NCBI RefSeq assembly: GCF_035975855.1
Contig: NZ_CP109055.1
Coordinates: forward strand, 5,456,001 to 5,520,000
Origin: Streptomyces sp. NBC_01304
GTDB taxonomy: Bacteria > Actinomycetota > Actinomycetes > Streptomycetales > Streptomycetaceae
Length of the DNA: 64,000 nucleotides
Direction: 5' to 3'
In this document: one piece after another, positions 25,168-58,756 of the stretch
Layout of the letters: each line of letters begins with the position of its first letter
Numbering within the stretch: position 1 is the first letter of the stretch
Program-made: the position numbers and the translations under genes
Notes under the pieces: generated by a model
Seen by the model: the letters and a program-made list of their open reading frames with translations, nothing else
What the model was told of the DNA's origin: nothing
Database searches by the model: none

Positions 25168-26655
25168 ATGTCTGCCACCGCCACCGCCGCAGCCCCCCTC
25201 AGCACCGATGCCGAGTCCGCCCCCCTCAGCACCGAAGCCGAATCCGCCCCGGCCCCCACCCGCTCCCGCTGGCTCGCCCTCGGCGTCCTCGCCACCGGGA
25301 TGCTGATGACGGTCCTCGACGGCAGCATCGTCACCGTCGCCATGCCGGCCATCCAGGACGACCTCGGATTCACCCCGACCGGACTGAGCTGGGTCGTCAA
25401 CGCCTACCTCATCGCCTTCGGTTCGCTGCTCCTGCTGGCCGGGCGCCTCGGCGATCTCATCGGCCGCAAACGGATGTTCCTGGCAGGGACGGGGGTGTTC
25501 ACCGGCGCCTCACTCCTCGCCGGAGTCGCCGCATCGCCCGCGGTCCTGATCGCCGCCCGCTTCCTCCAGGGCGTCGGCAGTGCGATGGCCGCCGCCGTCA
25601 GTCTCGGCATCCTGATCACGCTCTTCACCGAACCCCGCGAACGGGCCAAGGCCATCGCGATATTCAGCTTCACCGGCGCGGCCGGCGCCTCGATCGGGCA
25701 GGTCCTCGGCGGCGTACTCACCGAGGCGCTCACCTGGAACTGGATCTTCTTCATCAACCTCCCGATCGGCATCGCGGCCCTGCTCGTCGCCCTCCCCGCC
25801 CTGCCCGGCGACCGCGGCCTCGGCCTGAAGGCCGGCGCGGACGCGCTCGGCGCGCTGCTCGTCACCTCCGGCCTGACGCTCGGCATCTACACGGTGGTCA
25901 AGATCGAGGAGTACGGCGCCACTTCGGCCCACACGCTCGGCCTCGGCTCTCTCGCACTCGCCCTGCTCGCCGGCTTCGTCGTCCGCCAGGCCAAGACGGC
26001 CAACCCCCTGATGCCGCTCCGGATCTTCCGCTCCCGCAGCGTGACCGGCGCGAACGTCGTCCAGATGCTGATGATCGCCGCCCTCTTCTCCTTCCAGGTC
26101 CTCGTCGCGCTCTACCTGCAGAACGTCCTCGGCTACGGCGCCGCCAAGACCGGCCTCGCGATGCTGCCGGCCGCGGTCGTCATCGGCGCGGTCTCCCTGG
26201 GCGTCTCGGCCCGCCTCAACGCCCGCTTCGGCGAGCGCAACGTGCTGCTGGCCGGCCTTGTCCTCCTCGTCGGCGTACTCGGCCTCCTGACCCGACTGCC
26301 CGACCAGGCCGCCCAGGTCAACTACTTCACCGACCTGCTCCCCGTGATGCTCCTCGCCGCCGGCTTCGGCCTGGCGCTGCCCGCCCTGACCTCGCTGGGC
26401 ATGTCCGGCGCGAAGTCCGAGGACGCGGGTCTGGCCTCCGGCCTCTTCAACACGACCCAGCAGATCGGCATGGCCGTCGGCGTCGCGGTCCTCTCCACCC
26501 TTGCCGCCTCCCGCACGGAGTCCCTGACCGAGGCGGGCCGCTCCGCCTCCGAAGCCCTGACCGGCGGATTCCACCTGGCCTTCGGGGTCGGGGCGGGCCT
26601 GATCGTCGCGGCCTTCGCGGTGGCCTTCACGGTCCTTCGGGCGCCGCGCCGCTAG
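25168..26655 (+). CDS. MFS drug/proton antiporter (DHA2/EmrB-QacA type)
   Basis: 495 aa from ATG at 25168, with GGAGAAG five bases upstream. About 14 membrane helices. Motif A-like GRLGDLIGRKRMF lies between helices 2 and 3, motif D-like LDGSIVTVAMPAIQ in helix 1 and an antiporter motif C-like SIGQVLGGVL in helix 5. The N-terminus contains a duplicated segment (LSTDAESAP / LSTEAESAP). It probably exports hydrophobic toxicants and is controlled by the divergent MarR. Confidence 0.92.
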   Translation: MSATATAAAPLSTDAESAPLSTEAESAPAPTRSRWLALGVLATGMLMTVLDGSIVTVAMPAIQDDLGFTPTGLSWVVNAYLIAFGSLLLLAGRLGDLIGRKRMFLAGTGVFTGASLLAGVAASPAVLIAARFLQGVGSAMAAAVSLGILITLFTEPRERAKAIAIFSFTGAAGASIGQVLGGVLTEALTWNWIFFINLPIGIAALLVALPALPGDRGLGLKAGADALGALLVTSGLTLGIYTVVKIEEYGATSAHTLGLGSLALALLAGFVVRQAKTANPLMPLRIFRSRSVTGANVVQMLMIAALFSFQVLVALYLQNVLGYGAAKTGLAMLPAAVVIGAVSLGVSARLNARFGERNVLLAGLVLLVGVLGLLTRLPDQAAQVNYFTDLLPVMLLAAGFGLALPALTSLGMSGAKSEDAGLASGLFNTTQQIGMAVGVAVLSTLAASRTESLTEAGRSASEALTGGFHLAFGVGAGLIVAAFAVAFTVLRAPRR

Positions 26656-27089
26656 TCCTCGCTGAGGGCGTCGCACTCGAACCAGACGGTTTTGCCCGGT
26701 CGGGCAGCGGGGTCGGGGTTCCGGGCGACGCCCCAGCGGTCAGTTACACCCTCGATGAGGAGCAACCCCCGGTTGTTCTCGGTCAGTTCGGAGCCCTCGT
26801 CTGCCGTACGCGGCAGACGGGGGCTCTTGTCGTCGACCTCGACCCGGATCCCCTCGGGGCGGCGGGCGATCAGGATCGTGCAGCGCCTGCCCGGGACATG
26901 CCTTATGACGTTCGAGGCCAGCTCGGTGAGCGCGAGCCCGGCGCCGTCCGTGAGTTCCGGCATGCGCCAGGCGTGCAGGAGCAGACGGAGGATCTGGCGC
27001 AGGTGCCGGGCGGAGTGCGCACCGACGGTGAGGCTCATGCGGTACGAGGGGTCAAGGGGCGGGGCCTGGGCGGGAGTTGGGTGATTCAT
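26652..27089 (-). CDS. GHKL ATP-binding (anti-sigma-like) protein
   Basis: 145 aa. HATPase_c_2 domain: the N-box TELASNVIRH, the G1-like VEVDDKSPRLP and the lid region ENNRGLLLIEGVTDRWG. These RsbW/SpoIIAB-like proteins are abundant in Streptomyces and often sit beside XRE-DUF397 pairs, as here. Its stop overlaps the MFS stop (convergent, TAG/TAG within 4 bp). Kinase activity and partner unknown. Confidence 0.88.
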   Translation of the reverse strand: MNHPTPAQAPPLDPSYRMSLTVGAHSARHLRQILRLLLHAWRMPELTDGAGLALTELASNVIRHVPGRRCTILIARRPEGIRVEVDDKSPRLPRTADEGSELTENNRGLLLIEGVTDRWGVARNPDPAARPGKTVWFECDALSED

Positions 27090-27174
27090 GTCACCAGGGT
27101 GGAGTGGGGTGATTACGCTGGGCTACGGCTTGAACCGGACGCCGCGAGGCGTGAGCTTGGGGGTGGCTGTCACC

Positions 27175-28023
27175 ATGGCCAACATCCGCGATCTGGATCC
27201 CGGCGCTTCGCCGCTGGACTACTACGGCTCGGAACTGCGCCGCCTGCGCGAGGACGCGGACCTCAGACAAGGGGAGCTGGGCTCCGTCGTCTTCTGCTCC
27301 GGCTCACTGATCGGCCAGATCGAGACGGCCCACAAGGTCCCCACCCGCGAGCTCTCGGAGCGGCTCGACGCCGCACTCGGCTCGGACGGGCACTTCACGC
27401 GGCTCGTGGGCCTTGTGCTGCGCAGCCAGTTGCCGACGTGGTTCCAGGCGTACGCGGAGCTGGAAGCGAAGGCCGCGTACATCTCCACCTACCAGGCCCA
27501 GTTGGTGTACGGCCTGCTGCAGACCGAGGCGTACGCACGGGCCGTACTCGGCGTACGCGGCGAGGACGACCTCGACACCAAGGTCGCCGCGCGACTGGAG
27601 CGCCAGCGGATCCTGGAGCGCGAGGAACCGCCGCTGATCTGGGTCGTACTGAGCGAGGCGGTGCTGCACCAGGAGATCGGCGGCCCGGAGGTCATGCGAA
27701 ACCAACTCGCCCATCTGTTGGGTACGCGGCAGCGGGAGTGGGTGCGGTTGCAGGTTCTGCCGTTTGAGGTGGGTGAGCATGCGGGACTGCCGGGCACGTT
27801 CAATCTCTTGCGCTTCGATGGCGACCCGGACCTCGTCTACACCGAGGACTTCGTCCAGGGCCACATGACCGCCAACCCGCAAGCTCTCAGGGAGGGTTCG
27901 CTCCGTTACGATCATTTGCAGGCTGCCGCGCTCTCCGTAGAGAAATCGGCGGCACTGATCGCCCGCGTATCGGAGGAGCGTTATGGACAGGCAGCTGGAC
28001 CTGACGGCCGCGCTGTGGCGTAA
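27175..28023 (+). CDS. XRE family regulator with DUF5753
   Basis: 282 aa from ATG at 27175, with a G-rich ribosome site; a GTG at 27151 is the alternative. The N-terminal HTH_31/XRE domain (about 14-70: YGSELRRLREDADLRQGELG, CSGSLIGQIETAHKVPTREL) is followed by the DUF5753 ligand-like domain (about 95-270). WhiJ-like family. It overlaps the downstream DUF397 gene by 41 bp, the usual regulator/small-partner pairing in Streptomyces development. Confidence 0.93.
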   Translation: MANIRDLDPGASPLDYYGSELRRLREDADLRQGELGSVVFCSGSLIGQIETAHKVPTRELSERLDAALGSDGHFTRLVGLVLRSQLPTWFQAYAELEAKAAYISTYQAQLVYGLLQTEAYARAVLGVRGEDDLDTKVAARLERQRILEREEPPLIWVVLSEAVLHQEIGGPEVMRNQLAHLLGTRQREWVRLQVLPFEVGEHAGLPGTFNLLRFDGDPDLVYTEDFVQGHMTANPQALREGSLRYDHLQAAALSVEKSAALIARVSEERYGQAAGPDGRAVA

Positions 28024-28258
28024 GTCCTCGTACAGCAGCGACACCGGCGGCGACTGCATCGAGTGCGCCCCCCTGGACGGCGCCGCATGGCGTAAGTCCT
28101 CGTACAGCGGAGACACCGGCGGCGAGTGCGTCGAGATCGCTCACCTCAACCCCCACGTCGCCGTCCGCGACTCCAAGAACCCCCAAGGCCCCGCCTTCAC
28201 CGTCAGCCCCGAAGCCTTCGCCCGCTTCGTCGAGGCCGCTGTGCAGGGGGAGCTCTAG
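27983..28258 (+). CDS. DUF397 protein with duplicated N-terminal motif
   Basis: 91 aa, longer than the usual 60-70. The DUF397 signature WRKSSYS-DTGG-C-E occurs twice (about residues 12-29 and 36-53), from an in-frame 72-bp duplication at 28016-28069 and 28088-28141. The usual VAVRDSKNPQGPAF and a helical end follow. It is the probable partner of the overlapping XRE regulator. Confidence 0.9.
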   Translation: MDRQLDLTAALWRKSSYSSDTGGDCIECAPLDGAAWRKSSYSGDTGGECVEIAHLNPHVAVRDSKNPQGPAFTVSPEAFARFVEAAVQGEL

Positions 28259-28330
28259 CTGTTCTGTCCCGGGAGGTTGTGGACGGGCCGACATCTCAGT
28301 CTCCAAGATCCCCGACCTCGTCACCCGCGA

Positions 28331-29341
28331 TCAGCTCTGCGTCTCCTCGTGGCGTCCAATAGCGGCCGCATCGGGTACGAGGAGCAGCTTGCCGGTGGTA
28401 CGCCGAGCCTCCAGATCGCTGTGGGCCTGGGCGGCCTCGGACAATGCGTAGCGGCCCGTCACGGTGACCTCAAGCGCCTTGGAGCGCACCCACTCGAACA
28501 CATCGGCGGCCCGTCGGAGCAGTTCGGACCGATCGGCGATGAAGTCCCCGAGGCTGGGCCGGATCAGGGTCAGCGAACCGCCATGGGCGAGCCGAATCGG
28601 ATCAAACGGCGGCACGGCACCACTTGCCGCGCCGAAGAGCACGAGATGGCCGCGGGTTCGCAGGCTGGCGAGGCTCGCATCGAAGGTGTGCGCGCCGACG
28701 CCGTCGAAGACAACCGGCAGTCCCTGACCGCCGTTGAGCCGCCTCACCTCGGTTGCGAGATCGTCGACTGCGGAGGAAAGGATCACCTCAGCGGCCCCGG
28801 CACGCTTCGCCAGCTCGGCCTTGGCCGTGGTCGACGTCGTGCCGATCACCCTGCCGCCGAGATGGGTGATGAGCTGGGTCAAAAGCAGCCCCATGCCGCC
28901 GGCAGCCGCATGCACGAGCACCGTGTCGCCCCCCTGAACCGGGTAGGCGTCCTTGACGAGATAGTGCGCGGTCATGCCTTGGAGGAGCACGGCGGCGGCT
29001 GTCTCGAAGCCGATGTCGTCGGGCAGCGGCACCAGCCGGGAGGAGTCCACGACGGCCCGCTCGGCATACGTGCCGGGAATCTCCACCCAACCGACCCGGT
29101 CCCCGACTGCGACGTCAGCGACGCCGGGTCCCACTTCGACGACCGTGCCGGCGCCCTCGGCGCCCGGGGTGAAGGGCAGCGGGAGGCTGTACCGGCCTTC
29201 GCGGTGGTAGACGTCGAGGAAGTTGACCCCGGATGCGGCGACCTCCACGACCGCCTCGCCCGGACCCGGCCGCGGCTGGTCCACCTCGGCCTCCTGCAGC
29301 ACCTCGGGACCGCCCACTTCGTACACCTGAATCGCTCGCAT
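28331..29341 (-). CDS. Zinc-independent quinone oxidoreductase (MDR family)
   Basis: 336 aa from ATG at 29341, with GGAGGG four bases upstream. A GroES-like N-terminal domain (GEAVVEVAASGVNFLDVYHR) is followed by the NADPH-binding Rossmann domain (VLVHAAAGGMGLLLTQL). The zinc ligands of alcohol dehydrogenases are absent, so it is a quinone oxidoreductase/zeta-crystallin type reducing quinones or enones with NADPH. It stands alone, upstream of the large inverted repeat. Confidence 0.93.
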   Translation of the reverse strand: MRAIQVYEVGGPEVLQEAEVDQPRPGPGEAVVEVAASGVNFLDVYHREGRYSLPLPFTPGAEGAGTVVEVGPGVADVAVGDRVGWVEIPGTYAERAVVDSSRLVPLPDDIGFETAAAVLLQGMTAHYLVKDAYPVQGGDTVLVHAAAGGMGLLLTQLITHLGGRVIGTTSTTAKAELAKRAGAAEVILSSAVDDLATEVRRLNGGQGLPVVFDGVGAHTFDASLASLRTRGHLVLFGAASGAVPPFDPIRLAHGGSLTLIRPSLGDFIADRSELLRRAADVFEWVRSKALEVTVTGRYALSEAAQAHSDLEARRTTGKLLLVPDAAAIGRHEETQS

Positions 29342-29470
29342 GACCCTCCAATAACGGCTCATCCCCCACCAACCCCGTTGATGGCGATCCGATTCCCGGA
29401 AAGCAGACCAGCCCGCCGCCCCCACCGAGAGCTGAGACGCCTGCTTTGCACCGGGTCCGGGACAGGAGAC

Positions 29471-29500
29471 CGAGGCCGAGGCCGAGGCCGAGGCCGAGGC
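29471..29500. repeat. 6-bp tandem repeat (CGAGGC)5
   Basis: Five exact CGAGGC units in the gene-free stretch 29342-30694. Between 29342 and 29585 I see no gene and no other structure. Confidence 0.85.
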
Positions 29501-29585
29501 CGTCAAGGGTCCACCGCACTCGCAGGCAAACCACCCGCAAGCCGCGTCCCCAACCTAACGAGGCAATACATCTAGCCGGCGAAAC

Positions 29586-29791
29586 TGATCAACTGCCTGA
29601 TTGCGTGGCTGGTGGGGGTGGGTGGTTGCGCGGACCTCCGTCTGTTTCGTCACTGGCTGCGGGTGCTCTTTTGGCTGGCTTTCCCCAACTGATGTCAGTA
29701 CGGGGCCCAGGGGGGAAGTTGCCGGTGATGGAAGAGGCGGGGGAAGAGCAAAGACGAAAGACAAAGACCGCAGCGAGGGGAGGGGATGGAG
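29586..29791 (+). repeat. Left arm of large inverted repeat
   Basis: About 206 bp, starting TGATCAACTGCCTGATTGCG, that recurs in reverse complement at 30481-30679 with about nine in ten positions identical. Differences are scattered and include a 7-bp indel near 29753, which would shift any reading frame; this argues against a conserved protein. The repeat arrays lie inward of it. Confidence 0.93.
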
Positions 29792-29851
29792 GGGGTGGGC
29801 TGGGGCTCGGAGGGTGGGCGAGGGAAGGGCGCGGGCTCGGGCTCGGGCTCG

Positions 29852-29997
29852 GAGAGCGGGCGCGGGCTCGGAGGCTGGGCGAGGGAAAGGCGCGGGCTCG
29901 GAGAGCGGGCGCGGGCTCGGAGGCTGGGCGAGGGAAAGGCGCGGGCTCGGAGAGCGGGCGCGGGCTCGGAGAGCGGGCGAGGGAAGGGAGAGCGGGC
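29852..29997 (+). repeat. 49-bp tandem repeat array inside the inverted repeat
   Basis: Units beginning GAGAGCGGGCGCGGGCTCGG recur at 29852, 29901 and 29950 with an exact 49-bp period, flanked by degenerate GGCGAGGGAAAGG pieces. The plus strand is almost pure purine plus C, with strong GC skew. All three frames give Gly/Arg/Ala/Ser low complexity, which I read as non-coding. Confidence 0.85.
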
Positions 29998-30042
29998 GAG
30001 GGAAGGGAGCGGGCGAGGGCTCGGAGGGCGGGTTGGGGGCCT

Positions 30043-30107
30043 AGTGGGGGAAAAGGGGCAACAGAACCAGCACAAAAGGGACGCTCTTGCGCCCCATTTC
30101 CCCCACT
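30043..30107. repeat. Inner inverted repeat at the centre of the element
   Basis: AGTGGGGGAAAAGGGGC at 30043-30059 is mirrored by GCCCCATTTCCCCCACT near 30091-30107, with one mismatch and a 31-bp loop. This is a second nested dyad at the middle of the 1.1-kb element. Confidence 0.8.
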
Positions 30108-30244
30108 AAGCCTTCAGGCGCCGCCCTCCGCCGCCTCGTGACGGGAAAGGAGCTCGCCTAACGGGCAAACCGGGCACCTCGACGCCACTTTCCGCACTGC
30201 TAGCCCCAGCGTCCCGGCCCCGGGCTCGCGCCTCCCCCACCCGA

Positions 30245-30475
30245 GCGCGCACTCCCCGCCCCGGGCCTGCACTTCCCCGTCCCGGGCCCGCACTTCCCCG
30301 TCCCGAGCCCGCACCTCCCCCCGCCGGGCCCGCACTTCCCCGTCCCGAGCCCGCACCTCCCCCCACCGGACCCGCACTTCCCGTGCCGGGCCCGCACCTC
30401 CCCCCGCCTAGCCCGCACCCCCAGCCCCGGGCCCGCACCTCCCCCGCCGGGCCCGCACCTCCCCTCCAGCCCCCT
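30245..30475 (-). repeat. About 20-bp GC-rich repeats in the right half
   Basis: Roughly a dozen imperfect units on the plus strand of the form CCCGCACTTCCCCGTCCCGAG. They differ completely in period from the 49-bp units of the left half, so the two halves have expanded independently. Confidence 0.75.
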
Positions 30476-30480
30476 CCCCC

Positions 30481-30679
30481 CTCCGTCCCCTTCTCTCGCT
30501 GCGGTCTTTGTCTTTGCCCTGCCCCCACCTCTTCCATCACCGGCAGCCACCTCCCTGGGCCCCGTACTGACAGCAATTGGGGAAAGCCAGCCAAGAGAGC
30601 ACCCGCAGCCAGCAACGAAACAGACGGAGGTCCGCGCAACCACCCACCCCCACCAGCCACGCAATCAGGCAGTTGAGCA
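30481..30679 (-). repeat. Right arm of large inverted repeat
   Basis: Reverse complement of the left arm at 29586-29791, about 199 bp. Its outer edge carries three head-to-tail GTTGAGCA units (30672-30694). It ends a few bases from the stop codon of the HTH gene at 30695. Confidence 0.93.
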
Positions 30680-30694
30680 GTTGAGCAGTTGCCC

Positions 30695-31309
30695 CTACCC
30701 CTCCCCACCCTCCGCCCCCACCGCACAGCCAGCCCCAGCCCCAGCCCCAGACCCAACCCCAGCCCCAGCCCCAACCCCAGCCGCCCCCTCCGCCGGAAAC
30801 AGGATCGGGCTGATCAGGTACCGCGTCCGCTCCGGCGAGGGCTCCTGGCCGATCCGGCGTACCAGCACGTCCCGCAACTCGCCGATCAGCTCGCCCAGTT
30901 CATCCGGGCTGAGCCACATCGCATGCTGCCGGTACCCCACCAGGTCGGCGGCAGGGTCGGCGTCGGGCCGGTCGAGGTAGGCGTTGAACTCGGCCAGCAG
31001 CGTCGCCATCGCCACGGCGAACACCTGCCGGTGCCCCTCGACCGAGACGGACGCGGCGGCATCCGCGTCGATCACGGCGCGCTCCCGCCGCAGCCGGTAG
31101 CGGCGCTCGACCGCACCCCGCACGCGCTGCTCGCCCTCGACTTCGAGCAGGCCCCCATCGGCGAGCAGGCCGACGTGGCGGTACACCGTCGCCTTCGACA
31201 CGTCGGGCAGCAGCGCGCACAACTGCGAGGTGGTCAGCGTCCGTTCGCCGGACATCGCGTGCACGATGCGCAGCCGTACGGGATGCAGAAGCAGGTCGAC
31301 CGTGTCCAT
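30695..31309 (-). CDS. Winged-helix (ArsR-like) regulator with Gly-Ala tail
   Basis: 204 aa from ATG at 31309. The N-terminal winged helix is MDTVDLLLHPVRLRIVHAMS then LTTSQLCALLPDVSKATVYRH (recognition helix), with an effector region up to about 170. The last 30 residues are Gly/Ala/Val low complexity, encoded by CCAGCC-type 6-bp repeats at 30728-30784. It is divergent from an alpha/beta hydrolase, with a palindrome between them, and is probably its repressor. Confidence 0.88.
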   Translation of the reverse strand: MDTVDLLLHPVRLRIVHAMSGERTLTTSQLCALLPDVSKATVYRHVGLLADGGLLEVEGEQRVRGAVERRYRLRRERAVIDADAAASVSVEGHRQVFAVAMATLLAEFNAYLDRPDADPAADLVGYRQHAMWLSPDELGELIGELRDVLVRRIGQEPSPERTRYLISPILFPAEGAAGVGAGAGVGSGAGAGAGCAVGAEGGEG

Positions 31310-31371: not shown

Positions 31372-32316
31372 ATGACCGGCACGACGACCACACCTCCCCT
31401 CGGGCGGCTGCACGACATCGGTGCCGGCCGCCACCTGATGCTGCACCGCTCCGGCACCGGCGGCCCCACCGCGGTGTTCCTGGCAGGGGTGGGCATGATG
31501 AGCCTGGACTACCTGAACATCCACCGCCGTGTCGCCGAGTCGACCACGAGCGTCCTCTACGACCGTGGCGGCAACGGCTGGAGCTACCCCGCCCAACTCC
31601 CCCGCACGGCAGGTGAAGTCACCGACGAACTGCGCCAGTTGCTGCACGACGCCGACGTTCCCGGACCGTACCTGCTGATCGGCCACTCCCTGGGCGGCGC
31701 CTACGCGCGCCACTACGCGAGGCGATTCCCGCACGAGGTGGCCGGGCTGCTGCTGCTCGACCCCTTCCATGAGGACCTGGCGGTCCGGGCGCCCCGGCAG
31801 GCGCGGGAGAGGCTCGACGCGATGATGGAGCAGATGGGGAGTCAGGAGTCGGAGTCGGAGTCAGAGTCAGAGTCGGAGTCGGAGTCGGTCGAGTTCACGG
31901 CGGAACAGCTCGAACAGGCCCGAGCCCAGCTCGTCCAGCACTTCGCCCCTTGGCCGGAGGCGGTCCGTGGGCCGCTGGCCGAGCGGCACCTCGACACCTG
32001 GCGAACCGCCGGGCGGGAGAACCAGAACCTGTACGACAAGGTCGCCGACGAACTCCGCGACGCCCCCGCCACCCCGGACGTACCCCTGATCGTGCTCACG
32101 GCGATGGGCCACGACGCGACCCAGGCCCACTTGTGGCCCGCGGAACTTCTGCACGAGATCAACGAGCTCAAGCGCACGCTGCACGCCGAGTTGGCAGCCG
32201 AGTCTCCGTACGGCGAGCAGCGGGTTCTCGGTGACGCGGGGCACGGGTGGCTGCACGAGGAGCGGCCGGACGCGGTGACTCAGGCCGTCAACGACCTGCT
32301 CTCGCGCGCCAGTTGA
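31372..32316 (+). CDS. Alpha/beta hydrolase with Ser-Glu repeat insert
   Basis: 314 aa from ATG at 31372, with GGGAG upstream; an ATG at 31324 would run through the presumed operator and is less likely. The nucleophile elbow is IGHSLGG, and the catalytic His is probably in GDAGHGWLHEE. A run of alternating Glu-Ser residues (31849-31887, 6-bp GAGTCG/GAGTCA repeats) is inserted in the cap region. Substrate unknown. Confidence 0.9.
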   Translation: MTGTTTTPPLGRLHDIGAGRHLMLHRSGTGGPTAVFLAGVGMMSLDYLNIHRRVAESTTSVLYDRGGNGWSYPAQLPRTAGEVTDELRQLLHDADVPGPYLLIGHSLGGAYARHYARRFPHEVAGLLLLDPFHEDLAVRAPRQARERLDAMMEQMGSQESESESESESESESVEFTAEQLEQARAQLVQHFAPWPEAVRGPLAERHLDTWRTAGRENQNLYDKVADELRDAPATPDVPLIVLTAMGHDATQAHLWPAELLHEINELKRTLHAELAAESPYGEQRVLGDAGHGWLHEERPDAVTQAVNDLLSRAS

Positions 32317-34666: not shown

Positions 34667-36934
34667 ATGGCTACGTTCCTTTCCAAGCTCGGCCGCCTCG
34701 CCTTTCGGCGAAGGGGGGTGATGGTGCTCCTCTGGCTGCTGATATTCGGCGGCGTCGGCTTCGCCGCCTCCTCCGCGCCCGCACCACCCGCCGACACGTT
34801 CTCGATGCCGGGCACCGAGTCGCAGGAGGCCTTCGACCTGCTGACGGAGAAGTTCCCGGACGCGAGCGCCGACGGCGCCAGCGCCCGGGTCGTCGTCCGG
34901 GCCCCCGAGGGCAAGAAGATCACCGACCCCGAGCAGAAGGCCGAAGTCGGCAAGCTGGTCGGGGAGTTGGGCACGTCCTCCCCGCAAGTCGTGAGCGCCG
35001 CCGACCCGTACAGGACCCCCGAGGTCAGCATCAGCAAGGACGGCACGACCGCCTACACGGTGGTGACGTACAAGGTCTCCGCGATGGAGGTCAGCGACAA
35101 GGCGCACGACGCGCAGGAAGCGGCCATCAAGAAGGCCGAGAAGACGGGCCTGACCGTCGAGGCCGGCGGTGACGCCGTCAAGATCGACCAGGCGATGGGC
35201 GGCACCGGCGAGCAGATCGGCATCCTGATCTCCGCGGTCGTGCTCGTCCTGACCTTCGGCTCGATGCTCGCGGCGGGCATGCCGCTGCTCACCGCGCTGA
35301 TCGGGGTCGGGGTCGGCATCTCCGGCATCACCGCCCTCGCCTCCACCTTCGACCTTTCCGCCACCACCTCGACGCTCGCGATGATGATCGGCCTCGCGGT
35401 CGGCATCGACTACGCGCTGTTCATCGTGTCCCGCTTCCGCGCCGAGCGGATCGAGGGGCGCACCCCCGAGGAGGCCGCGGGACGCGCCGTCGGCACCGCG
35501 GGTTCGGCCGTCGTCTTCGCCGGGCTGACCGTCATCGTCGCCCTCGCCGGACTGGCCGTCGTCAACGTCCCGATGCTCACCAAGATGGGCCTCGCCGCGG
35601 CCGGCACCGTCGCGGTCGCCGTGCTCGTCGCGATCACCCTGATCCCCGCCCTGCTCGGCTTCGCCCCGGTCAAGGTGATGGCCCGCAAGACCCGCCTGCA
35701 GTACGCCATCAAGCCCCTGTCGGAGAAGAAGCAGGGCGTGGCCGCCAAGCGCGCCGCCAGGCTCGCGAAGAAGGGCGGGCAGGACCGGCCCAACCTCGGC
35801 TCCCGCTGGGCGCGTTACGTGCTTCGCCACCCCGTGGCCGTGCTGCTCGTCGGCGTGGTCGGCCTCGGCGCCATCGCCGTACCGGCCGCGAGCCTCGAAC
35901 TCGGCCTGCCCGGCGAGGGCTCGATGTCGACGAAGACCACGCAGCGCAAGGCGTACGACATGCTCTCGGAGTCCTTCGGGCCCGGGTTCAACGGACCGCT
36001 GATGGTCACCGTGCAGGCGGACGACGCCGAGGCGGCGGGCAACAAGGTCGGCGACGCCCTGCGCGACGCGGACGGCGTGGTCTCGGTCTCCCCGGCCGGC
36101 GCCAACAAGGCGAACGACACCGCGATCGTCAACGTCATCCCCAAGACCGGCCCGACCGAGAAGAAGACCGAGGAGCTGGTACGCGAACTCCGCGGTGCCG
36201 CAGGTGAGTTGGAGCGGACCACCGCGTCCACGATCCTCGTGACCGGCCAGACGGCCATGTTCATCGACTTCTCGAAGACCCTCGACGACGCGCTCCTGCC
36301 CTACCTGGGCCTGGTCGTGGGCCTCGCCTTCCTGCTCCTGATGGTGGTCTTCCGCTCGATCCTGGTCCCGCTGAAGGCCGCCCTCGGATTCCTGCTCTCG
36401 GTGACCGCCGCACTCGGCGCCGTCGTGGCGGTCTTCCAGTGGGGCTGGCTCGCGGACGTCCTCGGCATCGAGCAGACCGGCCCGATCATGAGCACGATGC
36501 CGATCTTCATGATCGGAATCGTCTTCGGCCTCGCGATGGACTACGAGGTCTTCCTGGTCAGCCGGATGCGCGAGTCGTACGCCCACGGGGCACGCCCCGC
36601 CGATGCGGTCGTGGACGGCTTCCGGCACGGCGGCCGGGTCGTCGCCGCGGCCGCGGTCATCATGATGAGCGTCTTCTCCGGCTTCATCGTGGAGGACAAC
36701 GACTTCATCAAGATGATCGGCTTCGCCCTCGCGATCGCCGTCCTCTTCGACGCCTTCGTCGTCCGCATGGCGATCGTGCCCGCGCTCTTCGCCCTGCTCG
36801 GCAAGACCGCCTGGTGGCTGCCGAAGTGGCTGGACCGGATCCTGCCGAGGGTGGACGTCGAGGGCGAGAAGCTCGACGCCGCCGCGACCTCCGCTCCGCG
36901 GGCACCGCGCCGGGAGAGCACCCTCGTCGGCTGA
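34667..36934 (+). CDS. MMPL/RND family transporter
   Basis: 755 aa with two repeats. Each has one leading helix, a large extracytoplasmic loop and five clustered helices (about 180-340 and 545-715). The proton-relay motifs GIDYALFIVSRFR and AMDYEVFLVSRMR are intact. It is an MmpL-type exporter of lipids or hydrophobic compounds, substrate unknown. It stands alone between two terminators. Confidence 0.93.
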   Translation: MATFLSKLGRLAFRRRGVMVLLWLLIFGGVGFAASSAPAPPADTFSMPGTESQEAFDLLTEKFPDASADGASARVVVRAPEGKKITDPEQKAEVGKLVGELGTSSPQVVSAADPYRTPEVSISKDGTTAYTVVTYKVSAMEVSDKAHDAQEAAIKKAEKTGLTVEAGGDAVKIDQAMGGTGEQIGILISAVVLVLTFGSMLAAGMPLLTALIGVGVGISGITALASTFDLSATTSTLAMMIGLAVGIDYALFIVSRFRAERIEGRTPEEAAGRAVGTAGSAVVFAGLTVIVALAGLAVVNVPMLTKMGLAAAGTVAVAVLVAITLIPALLGFAPVKVMARKTRLQYAIKPLSEKKQGVAAKRAARLAKKGGQDRPNLGSRWARYVLRHPVAVLLVGVVGLGAIAVPAASLELGLPGEGSMSTKTTQRKAYDMLSESFGPGFNGPLMVTVQADDAEAAGNKVGDALRDADGVVSVSPAGANKANDTAIVNVIPKTGPTEKKTEELVRELRGAAGELERTTASTILVTGQTAMFIDFSKTLDDALLPYLGLVVGLAFLLLMVVFRSILVPLKAALGFLLSVTAALGAVVAVFQWGWLADVLGIEQTGPIMSTMPIFMIGIVFGLAMDYEVFLVSRMRESYAHGARPADAVVDGFRHGGRVVAAAAVIMMSVFSGFIVEDNDFIKMIGFALAIAVLFDAFVVRMAIVPALFALLGKTAWWLPKWLDRILPRVDVEGEKLDAAATSAPRAPRRESTLVG

Positions 36935-39065: not shown

Positions 39066-39122
39066 TTGTCCTCAAACGCCGGACGGGCTGGTAAAACCAG
39101 CCCGTCCGGCGTTTGAGGACAA
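39066..39122. repeat. REP-like palindrome, copy 1 (probable terminator)
   Basis: 27-bp perfect arms starting TTGTCCTCAAACGCCGGACG around an AAA loop. The tail GAAGCCGGCGGCAGCC and GGGAAGGGGCGGGGCGGGG follow to about 39170. The same core and tail recur at 58699, and the core at 45834. Confidence 0.93.
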
Positions 39123-45783: not shown

Positions 45784-45928
45784 TTTCCCCCCGCCCCGCC
45801 CCTTCCCGTAAGACTGCCGTCGGCTTCAAAGACTGTCCTCAAACGCCGGACGGGCTGATTTCATCAGCCCGTCCGGCGTTTGAGGACACAGCTCCGCAGG
45901 ATTTCGGGAAGGGGCGGGGCGGGGAGAA
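45784..45928. repeat. REP-like palindrome, copy 2, with mirrored flanks
   Basis: Core TGTCCTCAAACGCCGGACGG...ATTTCAT... at 45834-45888 with 26-bp perfect arms. This copy also has a second, outer dyad: CCCCGCCCCGCCCCTTCCCG at about 45790-45809 against CGGGAAGGGGCGGGGCGGGG at about 45905-45924. It sits between the nucleotidyltransferase stop and the next promoter (gap 45783-46002). Confidence 0.92.
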
Positions 45929-58698: not shown

Positions 58699-58756
58699 AT
58701 TGTCCTCAAGCGCCGGACGGGCTGATCTATCAGCCCGTCCGGCGCTTGAGGACAAT
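58699..58756. repeat. REP-like palindrome, copy 3 (probable terminator)
   Basis: 28-bp perfect arms starting ATTGTCCTCAAGCGCCGGAC around a CT loop, three bases after the FUSC stop. It carries a compensated change relative to copy 1 (AAACGCC to AAGCGCC, mirrored in the other arm). The tail GAAGCCGGCGGCAGCC and GGGAAGGGGCGGGG follow to about 58800. Confidence 0.93.

Follow-up and report, generated by a model that had tools for sequence, protein, structure and literature searches.

A mirror-pair repeat family of a Streptomyces chromosome and its probable relatives on plasmids and integrative elements

Main finding

The window analysed here, 64,000 nucleotides of contig NZ_CP109055.1 of Streptomyces sp. 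NBC_01304 (positions 5,456,001 to 5,520,000), contains a 1.1-kb quasi-palindrome that is real and not a one-off. Each of its arms appears to be a chromosomal relative of an intergenic element of about 100 bp carried by Streptomyces plasmids and integrative conjugative elements (ICEs), with descent probably leading from replicon to chromosome. On plasmids and ICEs the element is usually present in one copy, often close to genes for replication or transfer control. In the lineage of NBC_01304 it would have been amplified to its present copies, mostly inward-facing pairs around a hairpin, and the copies would be kept alike by recombination between loci, of which the mosaic pattern is observed. 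We favour a DNA element that is borne by replicons and bound by a protein, and that was amplified here into mirror pairs and homogenised through recombination, and place the probability of this reading at slightly under one half. The element would act at the level of double-stranded DNA and not through an RNA or protein product, and a putative protein would read repeats such as GTGGCTGA. On plasmids that protein may serve the replication or transfer of its replicon; on the chromosome, mirror pairs near XRE/DUF397/HATPase clusters might be two-way docking sites that act on the clusters or titrate a plasmid factor. An earlier note, made from the letters of the window, missed both the kinship with plasmid and integrative-element sequence and the link to these clusters.

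Architecture of the palindrome in the window

The features of the palindrome and of the adjacent cluster are as follows.

26652 to 27089, minus strand: HATPase_c_2 protein (Pfam) of the neighbouring cluster
27088 to 28023, plus strand: XRE regulator with HTH_31 and DUF5753
27983 to 28258, plus strand: DUF397 protein, whose 3' side faces the element if the inserted stretch 28289-29577 is set aside
29586 to 29791, plus strand: left arm, conserved core 29599-29710 (GATTGCGTGGCTGG...GGCTTTCCCC...GTCAGTACGG), with short TCAACTGC-type repeats immediately outside the core
29793 to 30032, plus strand: G-rich tandem repeats on the hairpin side, with 49-bp and 19/30-bp periods
30038 to 30112, no strand assigned: central hairpin GTGGGGGAAAAGGGGC...GCCCCATTTCCCCCAC
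30113 to 30211, no strand assigned: asymmetric conserved stretch beside the hairpin
30212 to 30464, minus strand: C-rich tandem repeats on the other side, with a 21/41-bp period
30481 to 30694, minus strand: right arm, mirroring the left, with its conserved core at 30555-30666 and TCAACTGC-type repeats on the outer side at 30667-30694

The earlier note had described inverted arms of about 200 bp that are roughly nine-tenths identical, and this is borne out: the stretches 29583-29758 and 30507-30682 (176 nt, separated by a 748-nt spacer) are 92% complementary, and blastn of one arm over its full 206 bases gives 89% identity to the other (partner place 5486481-5486679). The arms are thus as proposed, but the most conserved part is shorter than the 200 bp that had been suggested, about 110 bp in each (29599-29710 and 30555-30666). 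The 49-bp repeats reported on the left were recovered with a period of 49 and 3.0 copies at 29840-29985, the repeats of about 20 bp on the right with a period of 21 (12.2 copies) or 41 at 30212-30464, and the nested central dyad as two 22-nt arms, 30038-30059 and 30091-30112, that are 91% complementary. The 7-bp indel said to separate the arms is likewise present in the arm alignment.

The counterpart of the G-rich stretch 29793-30032 varies in length among the other loci displayed. The asymmetric stretch 30113-30211 is also found at other loci of the genome, for example L033, L034 and L038, and in reversed orientation at L035, L036, L037 and L040; its presence gives the element a direction. 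When the central stretch (query 30028-30215) was searched against plasmids, no Streptomyces match was returned, only four weak rows from Azospirillum.

The left arm is not bordered by unique DNA, as an insertion-sequence remnant (28289-29577) stops 8 bp before it and stands between the arm and the cluster of the window. The remnant holds a quinone-oxidoreductase-like gene, for which 27 of 391 other Streptomyces genomes have a match of at least 1 kb at 92-98% identity, together with the final 66 bases of a transposase that is IS481-like (both names being a reading of the proteins). In some other genomes more transposase lies between the parts of the remnant. The stretch looks like a widely spread insertion sequence with a passenger gene.

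Several other repeats were observed. Outside the arm, short TCAAAGAT/C repeats occur in several species and in the genome's own copies (L144, L146, L157, L033 and L050), and the TCAACTGC form of these outer repeats is found in many full-type copies; this outer feature lies beyond the span of the profiles used below. Three hexanucleotide arrays, possibly variable in length, fall within 2.4 kb: GAGGCC x6 at 29466-29502, CCAGCC x9 at 30729-30782, in the 3' end of a regulator frame, and GGAGTC x8 at 31838-31888, in a hydrolase-like frame. A further dispersed repeat, a tight inverted pair of TCAGCCCGTCCGGCGTTTGAGGAC, is located at 39068-39120, 45835-45887 and 58702-58753, with relatives in the flanks of loci L043, L044, L049 and L050.

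The arm family in the genome of NBC_01304

With the window arm as blastn query, 34 arm copies were found at 19 loci of the genome, the sister copies being 84-94% identical to the window arm. Profile R1, built from alignment A1 of these 34 arms only, returned the same 34 from the genome, after which the E values jump from 1.2e-23 to 0.035. The arms are paired at 15 of the 19 loci and single at four, and they face inward in every pair. The search of the arm elsewhere that the earlier note had called for thus recovers it both paired and single, and its description of two copies of one unit facing each other is borne out. The palindrome might have been a one-off local inverted duplication without relatives, and the window arm by itself indeed has no match among plasmids; the 34 copies in its own genome refute this explanation.

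Full-type loci comprise 11 pairs (0.5-1.5 kb) and one single arm. The seven diverged loci consist of four pairs (321, 350, 400 and 1503 bp) and three singles. Pair middles are filled with locus-specific G-rich and C-rich repeats, of which there is little in the short pairs. A hairpin of the form GTGGGG..AAA..GGGC / GCCC..TTT..CCCCAC is present at 18 of the 19 loci (17 by pattern and L047 by eye, the pattern rows for L044 and L047 being false matches to the arm) and was not seen in L044. Gene calls outside the annotated plasmids are rough, being based on a GC3 rule, and called frames that overlap the elements at L040, L047 and L049 were taken for wrong starts.

The 19 loci are confined to one stretch, from 3.77 to 8.08 Mb, that makes up 40% of the 10.66-Mb main contig. 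Nineteen points placed uniformly would span as narrow a range with a probability of 9.7e-7, and dnaA, at 5.64 Mb, is inside the element-bearing stretch. A wider reading, which we consider unlikely, is that the chromosome captured the replicon element of about 100 bp and doubled it into 15 inverted pairs about the origin, often adjoining XRE/DUF397/HATPase clusters, as an array that would control or interfere with incoming plasmids and ICEs; the element would then be common to unrelated replicons and read by a chromosomal or element-encoded factor.

At 12 informative sites in the 23 full-type arms, all four allele combinations occur at 44 of 66 site pairs, some of them 4 bp apart. Such a mosaic is the pattern expected of exchange between loci; recombination is inferred from it, and repeated mutation could contribute. 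Arms of the same palindrome are 0.919 alike (11 pairs) versus 0.928 for arms of different palindromes, so that conversion within a palindrome, matching its two arms to each other, finds no support. An empty-site comparison at L045 yielded no empty site: its best matches span one flanking gene only, and the two flanks were not seen side by side.

Neighbouring gene clusters

A DUF397 gene lies within 2 kb of 11 of the 19 loci. Random placement gives a mean of 0.27 such loci, 11 being reached in none of 20000 simulations, and the expectation is 0.40 when placement is confined to 3.5-8.3 Mb. The other eight loci are not near DUF397. Of the 32 DUF397 matches counted, 12 have an element nearby, one locus accounting for two of the 12, and 20 have none (39 rows were reduced to 32 by leaving out six second pieces of one gene and one row on contig C2).

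At L033, L034 and L038 the element closely follows the stop codon of a HATPase-type gene, those at L033 and L038 scoring just under the Pfam cut-off. The flanking clusters of these three loci are paralogues, 76% alike for L033/L038 and 68% and 69% for the other two comparisons (L033/L034 and L034/L038), in which the arms are 92-93% alike as against 68-69% for the clusters. For L033/L038, the HATPase genes (93%) are as alike as the arms (91%), so that recent duplication explains this pair and it gives no evidence for extra conservation of the arms.

The proximity to DUF397 at 11 loci would also fit a cis-regulatory site, with the arms bound by an XRE protein that controls its own cluster and the plasmid copies served by similar regulators. 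An XRE/DUF5753 gene at a distance of about 0.3 kb from L147, a single copy, and HATPase-type genes 0.7-4.3 kb from L145 (below the Pfam cut-off), L159 and L234 are in line with such a site. The 20 chromosomal DUF397 matches without an element tell against it, as do the 21 annotated plasmid places described below, where most neighbours are other genes, and we regard this explanation as quite improbable.

Relatives in other genomes

Searched alone against 99 other genomes, with at most eight candidates scored per genome, the window arm gave one weak 33-bp match (L031) that was judged to be chance. Profile R1 reached further: at E<=1e-3 its matches fall in NBC_01304 and in 7 of 391 other Streptomyces genomes, which makes 8 of 392 in all. 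Among them is Streptomyces mesophilus, in which the match falls on a contig of 15,091 bases; this contig was also the sole match of a contig pattern scan, from which the genome itself and very near genomes may be omitted. S. mesophilus carries a short mirror pair of about 310 bp and one single arm, and a HATPase-like gene, below the Pfam cut-off, lies about 0.8 kb from the pair. The other R1 matches are mostly single copies amid plasmid-like or integrative-element-like genes.

At E<=0.01 a wider profile, R2, had matches, some of them weak, in 13 of 20 selected genomes; six of those 20 had supplied copies for its training. Among the five closest relatives examined (82-84% identity at one gene), R2 found three arms in G244, a single copy in G319 and nothing in the other three genomes (G327, G162 and G404). 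The copies L144 and L158 of genome G127 both neighbour the same transposase-like gene, at distances of 363 and 453 bp, and this gene points away from them. Four relative copies used as blastn queries at E<=1 hit 34, 53, 23 and 18 plasmid records, those from Streptomyces numbering 34, 46, 22 and 12; the places hit barely exceed the records (36, 59, 24 and 19). Among the Streptomyces plasmid rows listed, no annotated feature lies beneath the match.

Profile R3 derives from 34 copies on plasmids and integrative elements, with no sequence of NBC_01304 or S. mesophilus among them. Its source copies were reached through searches begun with the arms of NBC_01304, so that the genome's own sequence is absent from the profile while the choice of copies is not independent of it. 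The alignment behind it (A3) holds 34 of 40 sequences, L144, L146, L147, L149, L158 and L159 being left out, and R3 matches all six of these held-back copies. It also matches the three S. mesophilus arms at E 2.5e-6 to 3.7e-6. In the genome of NBC_01304, the nine best of 35 listed matches all fall on known arms, with E values of 1.6e-4 to 0.04 and, in most cases, an alignment over nearly the whole profile; 13 of the 34 arms are among the 35. The two arms of the window are absent from the R3 lists even at E<=10; within the window R3 lists two other short stretches, 36406-36449 (E 0.0097) and 2789-2821 (E 0.054). The kinship of the window arms to the plasmid element is accordingly supported by the profile through their sister copies, which at 84-94% identity would carry the relation by likeness of sequence.

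Of 295 Streptomyces genomes searched with R3, NBC_01304 among them, 165 carry the element, in one to seven copies each and with scores of up to 89 bits. Few candidates were scored per genome in the genus runs of R1 and R3, so copy numbers are lower bounds; in the stricter genus-wide R3 run, two matches pass in NBC_01304 as against its 34 arms.

Context of the plasmid and integrative-element copies

From the plasmid rows listed, 23 places in 22 records were examined, and 21 of the 23 places have annotated genes (the PLSDB gene table is incomplete). In 10 of these 21 the element lies 480-723 bp upstream, on the same strand, of a 453-bp MarR-type gene with a small partner gene, which is labelled RepL2 in eight and is of the same size and unlabelled in two. 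In three more the genes downstream are a different, unlabelled pair, at a distance of 512-669 bp, which brings the places with the element 480-723 bp upstream of a repL1/repL2-type or similar gene pair to 13 of 21. An NCBIfam scan of four of the six proteins of those unlabelled pairs, and of the MarR/RepL2-type pair of L181, gave a name to none of them; being blank on a RepL2-type pair too, the scan is uninformative on a role in replication. One place has a MarR gene on the opposite strand and a primase downstream. The remaining seven have no rep-like gene close by, their neighbours being GntR/XRE/NUDIX, toxin-antitoxin or other genes.

Two of the copies borne on chromosomes stand out by their neighbours: L233 with GntR, RepSA (E 1.8e-148) and an FtsK match that falls short of the Pfam cut-off, and L234 with a strong FtsK match and GntR. 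Judged from these gene matches, the surroundings of both are pSAM2-type elements. Among the other three 19-kb regions, rough gene calls showed nothing of this kind at L236 and L237 and only XRE-/NUDIX-like genes at L235. In the window the element takes the form of a mirror pair, not of a single copy, and its neighbours are an XRE/DUF397/HATPase cluster and an insertion-sequence remnant, with no rep gene adjoining.

The commonest 8-mer of the plasmid and integrative-element copies is GTGGCTGA, with 40 exact occurrences in the 34 copies. With one mismatch allowed, at least two occurrences are present in 25 of the 34, compared with a shuffled mean of 0.10.

Protein, RNA and mobile-element explanations

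Besides the 7-bp indel, a 1-nt gap is present in 13 of the 23 full-type arms, so there is no single reading frame common to the arm family. A Pfam scan of eight open frames in the interior of the window palindrome gave no family match. A protein-coding gene pair was rejected on these 1-nt and 7-nt indels together with the Pfam result. The earlier note had held that DNA or RNA is conserved here and not protein; the exclusion of protein stands, and the RNA half of the statement finds no covariation behind it.

The same note had suggested a paired non-coding RNA and a covariance analysis of arm homologues. RNAalifold on the 34 arms of NBC_01304 predicted 28 pairs, none with change on both sides, in what is a weak test because many columns never vary. 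On the 34 plasmid and integrative-element copies it gave -2.08 kcal/mol, with both-sided change in two of nine pairs, in one sequence each, and Rfam returned no family at gathering score. A structured RNA was rejected on these covariation and Rfam negatives. A palindrome of this kind could also form a two-way transcription terminator: the arm pair and central dyad have hairpin potential, and several copies lie just past gene 3' ends. Single arms exist, however, and the RNAalifold and Rfam results weigh against a terminator and a structured RNA alike, so that we think either very improbable. As no convincing RNA structure emerged, the element is read as a DNA site for a protein.

Of greater weight is a MITE-like non-autonomous element, in which the arms would be terminal inverted repeats mobilised by a transposase or recombinase encoded elsewhere, with no host function. 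The earlier note had listed a non-autonomous mobile element among its candidates, and this holds as far as dispersal goes: inverted ends are present, 15 of 19 loci are paired, the 19 loci are scattered within one genome, and presence among the five closest relatives is patchy, from none to three arms. The flanking target duplications that it had proposed to look for were not found in any of 15 pairs, the longest direct repeat across the element being 6.2 nt, compared with 6.15 +- 0.25 for swapped flanks, and a clean transposon was rejected on this ground. Between paired arms no transposase was seen, by rough gene calls and, for the window copy, by Pfam, though a partner element with altered ends may exist. 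The arms end in ragged short repeats, many plasmids and genomes carry related copies singly, and the loci cluster beside DUF397 genes, all of which speak against a MITE. We hold it to be the likeliest of the alternatives, though a rather improbable one.

Comparison with known systems

An unlabelled element shared by 165 of 295 Streptomyces genomes, by pSAM2-type elements and by plasmids in which the adjacent gene pairs differ points to a common step of replication, transfer or control, and the window would be an example of a chromosome multiplying such an element. The R3 profile could also aid the detection of plasmids and integrative elements from their non-coding sequence.

Three groups of known systems bear comparison. 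The repL1/repL2 genes form the replication region of pSLA2-L-type linear plasmids, and the 10 of 21 plasmid places upstream of a MarR/RepL2-type pair on the same strand resemble this arrangement. The element differs in that the window has no rep gene beside it, and in that it is also found by other gene pairs and in pSAM2-type elements and so is not peculiar to RepL replicons.

The pSAM2-type integrative conjugative elements of actinomycetes have a cis-acting transfer locus (clt) that is read by the FtsK-like protein TraB. RepSA, GntR and a weak FtsK match at L233, and a strong FtsK match with GntR at L234, are shared with these elements, and the 8-bp direct repeats recall TraB recognition sequences. 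However, there are only about two GTGGCTGA copies per element, and we know of no TraB site with this 8-mer. Against the background of repL1/repL2 and TraB-clt, replication, transfer or control may be considered candidate roles.

With MITEs and BIME/REPIN-type repeats the family shares dispersal, palindromic form and the lack of a recognised gene inside. It differs from them in its size of 0.3-1.5 kb, its variable repeat-filled middle, the lack of a target duplication, the relation of its arms to a plasmid element and the mosaic between loci. What is special to the genome of NBC_01304 is the amplification of the element into mirror pairs, many of them beside XRE/DUF397/HATPase clusters.
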